A stretch of DNA of 64,000 nt from Nitrosarchaeum sp. (GTDB lineage Archaea; Thermoproteota; Nitrososphaeria; Nitrososphaerales; Nitrosopumilaceae), in contig NZ_JAILWF010000008.1 in assembly GCF_025699065.1 (NCBI RefSeq), forward strand, positions 1-64,000. The letters are read 5' to 3'. This document shows, piece by piece, positions 49,534 to 54,647 of this stretch; position 1 is the first letter of the stretch; each line of letters begins with the position of its first letter. Made by a program: the position numbers and the translations under genes. The notes under the pieces are model-generated. The model did no database searches. It saw only the letters and a list, made by a program, of their open reading frames with translations, and was not told the origin of the DNA.

Positions 49534-50055
49534 TTGAATCTAATAATTACGTGTGCCAGACATTTAGAATTAGAAACTAAACAAGAAATATCAGATATTT
49601 TAGATAAAATAGGAGATTCAGAACCAAAGATAATCATTACAAACATGTCTGGGATATTGACTGCGGAAACAAAACTAGACCCAATTGATGTAGTAAATAA
49701 AATCAAAGAAATGATATTAGATGAACCATGGTGTATTAGGTATTCTTTAAGAATTATTCCAATTCAAAAAATTACAGAAACAAAGATTGAAAGTATTGAA
49801 GAAGGAATTTCAGATTTAATTAAATTAATTTCTTCTCATGATTCATACCGAATATCAATTCAAAAAAGAAATTCAGACATTTCAAGTCAGGAGTTAATTT
49901 CAAGAATAGCAAATAAAGTTAAAAATAAAGTATCATTAGAATTTCCAGATAAAATCATATTAATTGAAATTTTGGGAAATAAGACAGGAATTGCCATAGT
50001 CAAAAAAACAGATATTTTGAGCGTAGAAAAAACAAAGAGAAGTATGTCAGAGTAA
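49534..50055 (+). CDS. THUMP-domain protein (Tan1/THUMPD1-like)
   Basis: 173 residues from TTG 49534 (MNLIITCARHLE); an SD-like gagggg lies about 15 bp upstream, and the frame stays open for 75 bp further upstream without a good start. The THUMP pattern is clear: SGILTAETKLDPIDVVNKIK, WCIRYSLRIIPIQ, SYRISIQKRNSDISSQELIS and EILGNKTGIAIV. Tan1 is the RNA-binding partner for N4-acetylcytidine at tRNA position 12. It is convergent with the Cgi121 fusion gene (9-bp overlap). Confidence 0.82.
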   Translation: MNLIITCARHLELETKQEISDILDKIGDSEPKIIITNMSGILTAETKLDPIDVVNKIKEMILDEPWCIRYSLRIIPIQKITETKIESIEEGISDLIKLISSHDSYRISIQKRNSDISSQELISRIANKVKNKVSLEFPDKIILIEILGNKTGIAIVKKTDILSVEKTKRSMSE

Positions 50056-50820
50056 AATTGCTGCTTTTTCTATCAATATATCTTCAAGAGGATTTTTCGA
50101 GATAACTGCATCAAGTTGCTTATCTGTTATTTTATAATATTTTTTTAAAAATAATGTATGATCTTTTGAAAATAACGGAATTGAAATAATTTCAATCTCA
50201 TTGTAAAGCTTGTCTAATATTTTTCTATTTCCAAGCGCAATTAACATAAAGTTTTGTTTTGGTTTCATTCCAGCAGAATTAATTGCAGTAGAAATTTGAG
50301 ATGAAATAGCAAAGCGCATCAAAATATCCATTTCAAATTTATTTGAAAGTAAAATATCATTCTTCTCAGAATAAACAGATAATGAAATAATTTTTTTAAG
50401 ATGATATCTGTTTAAAACAAAATTGCTGGACACAGCCTGAAGTTTTACACTAGGAAATTTTTTCCTTAGATTATCAACAAAAGTAACTGTAAGGTCGTCT
50501 TTGCCTTTAATTTCAACGACTTGAATTAATTTATTTGATATATTGAAAAATAGTCTTTTAGACAAACCGCCATGAATTATAGGAATTATACTTACTACAT
50601 CGTTGTTTTTAATTTCTGTATTTTTACCATCCATTGCAGAAGAATCAACACCGTTAATTGCTATCAAAATATTTTCAACATCAAGATTAGGAGTATTTGT
50701 GGGTTTTAGGTTTAGTAATAAATCAAGGAGTTCTTGAATAGTTATATCAGATTTATCAATTTTTATCTCATCAGTTAAAAATGACTTTTTTGCACCTCCT
50801 ACAAGTTTAATCATAATCAT
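50047..50820 (-). CDS. Fusion of ubiquitin/MoaD-like domain and KEOPS subunit Cgi121
   Basis: 257 residues. Residues 1-85 form a beta-grasp domain like MoaD/ThiS/SAMP: LVGGAKKSF start, LLDLLLNLKP helix, ILIAINGVDS, NDVVSIIPIIHGG, ending in the Gly-Gly typical of activated sulfur carriers (His-Gly-Gly at 83-85). Residues about 88-257 are Cgi121-like: QAVSSNFVLNRYHLKKI, FAISSQISTAINSAGMKP and the conserved C-terminal PLEDILIEKAAILL. Cgi121 brings tRNA to the KEOPS complex that makes t6A37. The fusion is clear from an uninterrupted frame; its purpose is unknown. Confidence 0.82.
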   Translation of the reverse strand: MIMIKLVGGAKKSFLTDEIKIDKSDITIQELLDLLLNLKPTNTPNLDVENILIAINGVDSSAMDGKNTEIKNNDVVSIIPIIHGGLSKRLFFNISNKLIQVVEIKGKDDLTVTFVDNLRKKFPSVKLQAVSSNFVLNRYHLKKIISLSVYSEKNDILLSNKFEMDILMRFAISSQISTAINSAGMKPKQNFMLIALGNRKILDKLYNEIEIISIPLFSKDHTLFLKKYYKITDKQLDAVISKNPLEDILIEKAAILL

Positions 50821-50869: not shown

Positions 50870-51187
50870 TTATTCTTCAGTAGTGGTACTTTTTGATTCT
50901 GAGACAATTTCAATAACTTGTTCTTCAGTAGAGTCGTCATCTGAAATTTTTTCTTGCAATGTGTGATTTTCGACTTTAGAAGACTCAATTTGAGACTGTT
51001 TTATTTTTTCGTCACGAATTTCTTTTTTGATAAATTTAGTAATATAGCCTGCAATTTCATTTTTTAATCCTTTAGAACGAATTATAGCTATTTGATCTAA
51101 GATTTTTTTGTTATCAGCAAAATCTTCTCCAAATTTTTGTTTGTGCTCATCTAATACTTCGTATGAAAGTCTCTTAATTCTATCCAC
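50870..51187 (-). CDS. rps17e: 30S ribosomal protein S17e with acidic C-terminal extension
   Basis: 105 residues. IKRLSYEVLDEHKQKFGEDF, NKKILDQIAIIRSKGLKNEIAGY and ITKFIKKE match S17e (about 65 residues in other archaea). The last 40 residues are an added acidic Ser/Glu/Thr-rich tail. Placed before the Cgi121 fusion gene on the same strand, 49 bp away. Confidence 0.88.
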   Translation of the reverse strand: MDRIKRLSYEVLDEHKQKFGEDFADNKKILDQIAIIRSKGLKNEIAGYITKFIKKEIRDEKIKQSQIESSKVENHTLQEKISDDDSTEEQVIEIVSESKSTTTEE

Positions 51188-52895: not shown

Positions 52896-54647
52896 TTGGC
52901 TCAAAACGGAAATAGCTTACTAGAATACATACCAGGTTCACATACACTTTTAGCTCAGAAAAATTCTAGCATGCCATTAGAAGGATTTTCAGAAAATGTA
53001 AGAGTTAGCATACAAGAATATGCAGAAGATTCAAAAAGTGAAGTAGAAAAAGGCAATAATTTTCTTCAATGGGTGCTTACACGAGTTTTTGAGGCTACAG
53101 AAGATGATGCTGCAGATGCAATTGTAGATGGTGCAAATGATCTTGGCATTGATGCATATCTACCAGTAGATTTTTCAGATAATACTATTCGCCTATTTCA
53201 ATCAAAATACGGGACTTCACATTCATTTGAAGCAATTGCAAAATTCAAAGAAGATGCAAAACGTTTACTCGGAAAAGACGTTTCAAAAATGAGGCCTGAA
53301 TTAGCTCAGCTTGTTACAAAGATCAAAGAAAAAAATCTGAAAATAAAATGCTGCTATGTTACAGATCAAAAAGTAGAGTATCAAGATGATATAATAGAAA
53401 TAATAGATATAGAAAAAATTGTTCAAAAATTATGGGAGAGAATAAAAAAACCTGCTGCTGGAAAAAGATCATCTATTAAATTAGAAAGAATGCTTAGACA
53501 TGAGAATACAATTTTAGGAATTTTAAAATTAAGAGAATTAACTGAATTTGTTAGTAAAAACAGAGATTATGTGTTTGAATCAAACATAAGACAATGGATG
53601 CAATTTAAAACAACAGTAAACAAAGGATTGAGAGAAACGCTTCAAAGTAATCCAGGAAAATTTTTTTATTATAATAACGGAATTACAATTGTAGTTAGTG
53701 ATTTTGAAGAATTGGGAGATAATCTCATAGAACTTCATGCACCACAAATTGTAAACGGTGCACAGACTTCCAACTCAATTCTTGATCATTCAAAGAGAAC
53801 AAAAAACATGGATGGTTCTATGACAGTAACAATAATCAAGGCAGATGATGAACAAGAACAGAACAATATTACAAAATACAGAAATTCACAGAATTCAGTC
53901 AGAGGGAAAGATCTTGTATCGCTAATGGATTTTCATAAGTCTATTAAATCACAATTAAAAAATTGTGGGTATTTTTATGAGATTCAAGCAGGTTCGTTTG
54001 ATACAAAATCAAAATCAAAACAATCAGAATATCAAGGAGATTCTCTATATAATGAATATCTTCCAGATAATCACAAAAAAGTTATTGTTGCAAAAGACGC
54101 CATACAAGCTCTAGTTGCCGGAATCGAACAAAGACCTACAGAAGCATATAGTTCTCCAGCTCAATTTCTTCCAAGAGGAAGTAAATACGATGATGTATTC
54201 AATGATAATCTAAAAGACGATTACAGAATTTTGTTATATCCATATTTAGTAAAAGAATATGCAAAAAAGACATTAAAGTATGGAAAACAAGGAGGTCATA
54301 AAACAAAAAGATATGCAACTTTATTTTATGTAGGAGTTTATTTTAGAATTTTACATAAAAAAATACTAGAAACTAAAGGAGATTTCAAGAGTGATGTGAG
54401 AAGGATGGAACCAATATTTCGTAGTTTTAAACTAAATTCTAGAATTCTGAAAATTGCAGATGTGGTTGTAACTAAATTTTTAGAAGATACAGTAGTAGAC
54501 GATGAAATAGAGTTAGCAAATACAAAGCATAATTTCTTCTCACAACATGTATGGAATGATTCAATGCTTAGAGTAGTAGATAAAAAAATAAGGCAAGAGG
54601 AGGAAGAAATCTTAGCCTTGAAAAAACTTGCAAATAACTTGTTTTAG
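52896..54647 (+). CDS. AIPR-family (abortive phage infection) protein
   Basis: 583 residues from TTG 52896. The N-terminal third has a restriction-endonuclease-like look: ANDLGIDAYLPVD (about 80-92) and RLFQSKYG (about 100-107), a D...QxK pattern. The centre carries the AIPR hallmark KFFYYNNGITIVV (about 254-266) and IVNGAQTSNSI (about 284-294). The family is tied to phage abortive infection. No partner methylase or toxin gene is adjacent, so it may act alone. Confidence 0.88.
   Translation: MAQNGNSLLEYIPGSHTLLAQKNSSMPLEGFSENVRVSIQEYAEDSKSEVEKGNNFLQWVLTRVFEATEDDAADAIVDGANDLGIDAYLPVDFSDNTIRLFQSKYGTSHSFEAIAKFKEDAKRLLGKDVSKMRPELAQLVTKIKEKNLKIKCCYVTDQKVEYQDDIIEIIDIEKIVQKLWERIKKPAAGKRSSIKLERMLRHENTILGILKLRELTEFVSKNRDYVFESNIRQWMQFKTTVNKGLRETLQSNPGKFFYYNNGITIVVSDFEELGDNLIELHAPQIVNGAQTSNSILDHSKRTKNMDGSMTVTIIKADDEQEQNNITKYRNSQNSVRGKDLVSLMDFHKSIKSQLKNCGYFYEIQAGSFDTKSKSKQSEYQGDSLYNEYLPDNHKKVIVAKDAIQALVAGIEQRPTEAYSSPAQFLPRGSKYDDVFNDNLKDDYRILLYPYLVKEYAKKTLKYGKQGGHKTKRYATLFYVGVYFRILHKKILETKGDFKSDVRRMEPIFRSFKLNSRILKIADVVVTKFLEDTVVDDEIELANTKHNFFSQHVWNDSMLRVVDKKIRQEEEEILALKKLANNLF

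Follow-up and report, generated by a model that had tools for sequence, protein, structure and literature searches.

The ubiquitin-like (Ubl) domain and the KEOPS subunit Cgi121 are encoded as one chain in the 64,000-nucleotide stretch of Nitrosarchaeum DNA analysed here (the window), and this chain is probably a precursor, cleaved by a JAMM protease after Gly85 to supply Cgi121 to KEOPS and a Ubl that serves as a carrier or modifier. The architecture is already known; the function of the fusion is a proposal. The earlier note on this DNA knew of no described fusion of this kind, which is incorrect, since Ubl-Cgi121 has been in print since 2010 (PMC2948915). Makarova and Koonin found the fusion in all Thaumarchaea then available, reported its cotranscription with S17 in Nitrosopumilus, and proposed either that SAMPylation regulates KEOPS or that there is a link to tRNA modification (PMC2948915). 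Our protein has the same architecture, clade and S17 neighbour, with no architectural difference from theirs. As far as our literature search reached, the survey of the HGG motif, the split relatives, the further fusions and the link to JAMM proteases are absent from that paper.

Fusion gene, domains and predicted structure

The reading frame of 257 residues (window 50047-50820, minus strand) is free of stops. Its first 85 residues (50566..50820, minus strand) constitute an Urm1/ThiS-like domain ending in His83-Gly84-Gly85, and are followed by a variable junction of residues 86-96 (50533..50565, minus strand), whose first residue would be separated from Gly85 by the proposed cut, and by the Cgi121 domain (50050..50532, minus strand). 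Among Pfam families, ThiS matches residues 17-85 over the cut-off (E = 4e-8 for the full-length protein, 3.6e-9 with the domain alone) and Urm1 matches the isolated N-terminal domain (4.7e-5). Cgi121 is identified by NF011465 (KEOPS subunit Cgi121; residues 20-256, 6e-56) and by PF08617 (residues 118-254, above the family cut-off). A search of the whole genome (1.6 Mb in 11 contigs, completeness 99.7%) found one Cgi121, the fusion protein itself, and Kae1, its KEOPS partner, is encoded in the same genome (1.6e-123). The named relatives that came up in protein searches belong almost all to Nitrosarchaeum, which places the genome in Nitrosopumilaceae.

An AlphaFold2 model built with 73 homologues (mean pLDDT 93.9) contains two folded domains, the N-terminal one with the strands and helices of a beta-grasp fold. 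The block of lowest pLDDT, residues 81-90, lies at the joint, and the pTM of 0.68 leaves the relative placement of the two domains uncertain. Foldseek matched the model best to a Cgi121 structure (4ww7_B, 3e-8) and matched its N-terminal part to the Urm1/SAMP structures 2k9x and 2l52 (3.4e-4) and to Uba4-bound Urm1 (6yuc_G, 9e-4). The profile matches, the model and Foldseek thus confirm the earlier note's assignment of a Ubl domain ending in Gly-Gly joined to Cgi121, and the beta-grasp fold of residues 1-85, on which it had made that assignment depend, is upheld by the model and the Urm1/SAMP matches.

The fusion gene stands between a gene for ribosomal protein S17e (50870..51187, minus strand; PF00833, 3.8e-19), 49 bp upstream on the same strand, and a convergent gene for a THUMP-domain protein (49534..50055, plus strand; PF02926, 2.9e-7) that overlaps its 3' end by 9 bp. 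The window also encodes an AIPR-family protein (52896-54647, plus strand; PF10592, 1.2e-59), whose family name stands for abortive-infection phage resistance.

The HGG boundary in fused and split relatives

The gene was read in 137 genomes of the class, comprising 114 fused homologues without a stop and 23 loci with a separate Ubl frame. Full-length homologues occur throughout Nitrosopumilaceae, nearly all of which carry the fusion; its spread across the clade, which the earlier note had left to be checked, shows that it is no chance event. The Gly-Gly on which that note had also staked its reading is conserved, HGG being identical in 114/114 fused homologues. The residues that follow are the most variable part of these proteins: mean column entropy is 2.45 for the 11 positions after HGG, compared with 1.43 for the Ubl and 1.69 for Cgi121, so that the Ubl part is on average the better conserved of the two domains. 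Directly after Gly-Gly stands S, A, T or G in 100 of the 114, and the Leu of the window protein is found in one. Variability here would also be expected of a plain linker, which counts against reading it as the mark of a cut.

The separate Ubl frames of the split loci stop exactly after HGG in 18 of 23 cases, and extend 1 to 7 residues further in the other five. Cgi121 mostly overlaps the Ubl gene or begins a few bases downstream; in family f11 a phosphoribosyltransferase gene lies between the two, and in some genomes of family f3 Cgi121 is encoded elsewhere. The S17e neighbour recurs in split loci (e.g. L164). Judging by the translated reading frames, L164 and L042 also have a convergent gene similar to the THUMP gene. 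Programmed readthrough or frameshifting at the split junctions was considered, but most loci are accounted for by a start codon that coincides with the Ubl stop or lies close to it. Within Nitrosopumilaceae there are two interrupted copies, both broken at the joint, one by a TGA one residue past HGG (G028) and one by a broken frame seven residues past it (G105); assembly error is possible in each.

When mapped onto a gene tree of 50 proteins built by maximum likelihood, the fused or split state requires five changes, and well-supported branches force all five. In genus g26 of family f3 the two forms alternate, which could reflect either several gains or gain and loss. Outside the class, a further Ubl-HGG-Cgi121 chain (L254:623-1507, minus strand, in G353) is apparently an independent fusion, and in another genome (L257:724-1605, plus strand, in G392) the partner joined to an HGG-type Ubl, again at HGG, is a phosphoribosyltransferase, and the gene that follows encodes Cgi121. 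The boundary at HGG is constant and the downstream partner varies. Taken together, the invariance of HGG with variable residues after it, the exact stops of the split genes, and the repeated changes between fused and split forms at one boundary favour a precursor that is cut.

The same observations bear on whether the chain stays whole, with the Ubl permanently attached to Cgi121 as a docking or regulatory module through which KEOPS is brought together with other tRNA-modifying or sulfur-transfer enzymes. The near universality of the fusion in Nitrosopumilaceae, which indicates that it is retained, speaks for such a role, and a Ubl without Gly-Gly on a t6A37 methylthiotransferase (G165, below) shows that fixed Ubls on t6A enzymes can exist. 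However, docking would not call for an invariant HGG at the joint, and it sits poorly with the alternation in g26 and with the same Ubl on an unrelated enzyme in G392; we consider it unlikely.

Other Ubls are associated with the tRNA t6A37 methylthiotransferase in four families. Fusions of the two occur in families f8 and f7: in G188 (L269:160-1707, plus strand; TIGR01578, 4e-131) the enzyme is fused to a MoaD-like Ubl ending in PPVGGG, and in G165 of f7 (L219:530-2053, minus strand) the Ubl domain on the enzyme lacks GG. In families f6 and f10 the two are separate genes, with 27-31 bp between the end of the Ubl gene and the methylthiotransferase gene downstream of it (G150:C3, G191:C78, G196:C3). 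This arrangement suggests a sulfur source for ms2t6A, supplied by a Ubl other than the one fused to Cgi121. A broader scheme would have Ubls act as sulfur donors at t6A37 or close to it: once freed from Cgi121, the Ubl would be charged by E1 and feed tRNA thiolation beside KEOPS, and the methylthiotransferase-linked Ubl would drive a route to ms2t6A; we regard this as quite unlikely.

JAMM proteases, the E1 enzyme and a second Ubl

The JAMM protease and E1-like genes that the earlier note had proposed to look for are both present, as two JAMM proteins with intact motifs and a single ThiF-family E1 (G000:C7, 8.4e-75). One JAMM gene, outside the window at G000:C5:103664-104062, has an intact HSHP...S..D motif. 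The stronger of the two JAMMs was searched in 200 genomes and was found in family f1 (bar four fragmented MAGs), in f3 genomes, in f2 (bar one genome), and in f5, f6, f8 and f10; in the same search it was absent from f4 (7/7), f7 (4/4) and the sole f9 genome. Nearly all genomes with fused Ubls carry a JAMM with an intact motif. In f4, f7 and f9, the HGG-type Ubls examined have a free end followed by a stop, as is also the case for the E1-linked Ubls examined in f4 and f7. A perfect match between JAMM and fusion does not hold, because f6 has a JAMM and no fused Ubl was found there; fusion alone therefore does not explain the distribution of JAMM, and the family pattern comprises few independent lineages. 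The thiolase family PF01171, tried as a discriminator, proved useless, with matches in 199 of the 200 genomes.

JAMM genes also adjoin the relevant loci: one lies inside the S17e-Ubl-Cgi121-THUMP locus in two genomes (G184 and G194), one directly before the Ubl-E1 gene in G020, and one beside E1 in G196 and G013. In G184, a gene beside the THUMP gene (L042, 2743-3414, minus strand) reads as a Sua5/YrdC-like threonylcarbamoyl-AMP synthase, so that JAMM, Ubl, Cgi121 and a putative t6A-precursor enzyme are encoded near one another.

The genome encodes two Ubls, the one fused to Cgi121 and one fused to E1, the latter with an internal AGG; AGG or SGG is likewise internal in 20/20 further Ubl-E1 proteins, 18 of them from Nitrosopumilaceae. 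Neither Ubl of the genome has a free Gly-Gly end, and a protease therefore seems to be needed if either is a carrier. The Ubl-E1 gene lies directly 3' of a threonine-synthase-like gene (G000:C7, L159:1104-3683), and this pair is located at contig ends in many MAGs. Loss of E1 was considered for about 26 Nitrosopumilaceae MAGs in which neither E1 nor the second Ubl was found, and would, if true, have made the conservation of HGG independent of E1. An assembly gap is the most likely cause: the neighbouring threonine-synthase orthologue is mostly missing too, and where retained is usually cut by or near a contig end (G109, G160, G161, G127, G116), and E1 is present in 24/24 of the single-contig Nitrosopumilaceae genomes listed. 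No rRNA operon that could cause the gap was found in the 36 kb searched. Overall, the internal Gly-Gly of both Ubls, the occurrence pattern of JAMM, and its presence within the locus of G184 and G194 lend further support to a cleaved precursor.

The earlier note had offered two fates for the chain, a cut after Gly-Gly or a tether between thiolation and KEOPS. The substrate of E1 enzymes is the free carboxylate of a C-terminal glycine. Here the glycine is held in a peptide bond, which makes an uncut thiolation tether unlikely; the cut is the better supported half of that proposal. Alternatively, the fusion may be cut and the Ubl act as a protein modifier (SAMPylation) instead of a sulfur carrier, its targets perhaps being KEOPS, S17e or further proteins of translation; JAMM would then deconjugate it as well. 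SAMPylation was among the 2010 suggestions, and a deconjugase role would fit both the presence of two JAMMs in the genome and that of a JAMM in f6, with its free Ubls only. However, no conjugates are known, and Urm1-type Ubls often do both jobs, which makes modification compatible with the precursor reading; as an exclusive role we consider it very unlikely. That the fusion is a functionless accident of overlapping genes, the stop lost and the joined protein tolerated, is hardly credible: the genes of split loci frequently overlap or lie end to end, and small changes are enough to join them, but the higher average conservation of the Ubl than of Cgi121, together with the invariant HGG, points to selection on the Ubl while fused.

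Proposed processing and comparison with known systems

According to the cleaved-precursor reading, one Ubl-HGG-Cgi121 chain would be made and cut after Gly85, the JAMM at G000:C5:103664-104062 being the candidate protease. The freed Cgi121 would join KEOPS in t6A synthesis, and the freed Urm1-like protein, its HGG end exposed, would be activated by the single E1 of the genome and may then serve as a sulfur carrier in tRNA thiolation, as a protein modifier, or as both. We infer that this cut is the most likely fate of the chain by analogy with four precedents: MoaX, which functions only once the bond between Gly82 and Ser83 is cut; DRJAMM, which cuts MoaD-MoaE; HvJAMM1, whose cut in SAMP1-MoaE falls exactly after the terminal Gly, the uncut form being inactive; and CsJAMM of Caldiarchaeum, which cuts SAMP precursors. 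If the precursor reading is true, the sole Cgi121 and the sole HGG-type Ubl of the genome are produced one to one, and a clade of archaea produces its Urm1-like protein as eukaryotes do ubiquitin, ahead of a translation-related protein. The reading also gives a simple test of the Ubl-KEOPS link proposed in 2010.

SAMP1-MoaE, MoaD-MoaE and MoaX resemble the fusion in having an N-terminal Ubl, an internal GG and then the partner, with the cut needed for sulfur carriage. They differ in that their partner is MoaE of molybdopterin synthase, the direct target of the Ubl, whereas Cgi121 of KEOPS takes that place here. In the ubiquitin-ribosomal protein precursors of eukaryotes, too, a Ubl stands before a protein related to translation and Gly-Gly marks the joint, although they are cut by other enzyme classes and the partner is a ribosomal protein. 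Finally, the Urm1 proteins of eukaryotes and Sulfolobus share the beta-grasp fold and match the domain in sequence and structure, and that of T. brucei has the HGG tail; in contrast to the fusion, in which the GG is internal, they are free proteins with a terminal GG.
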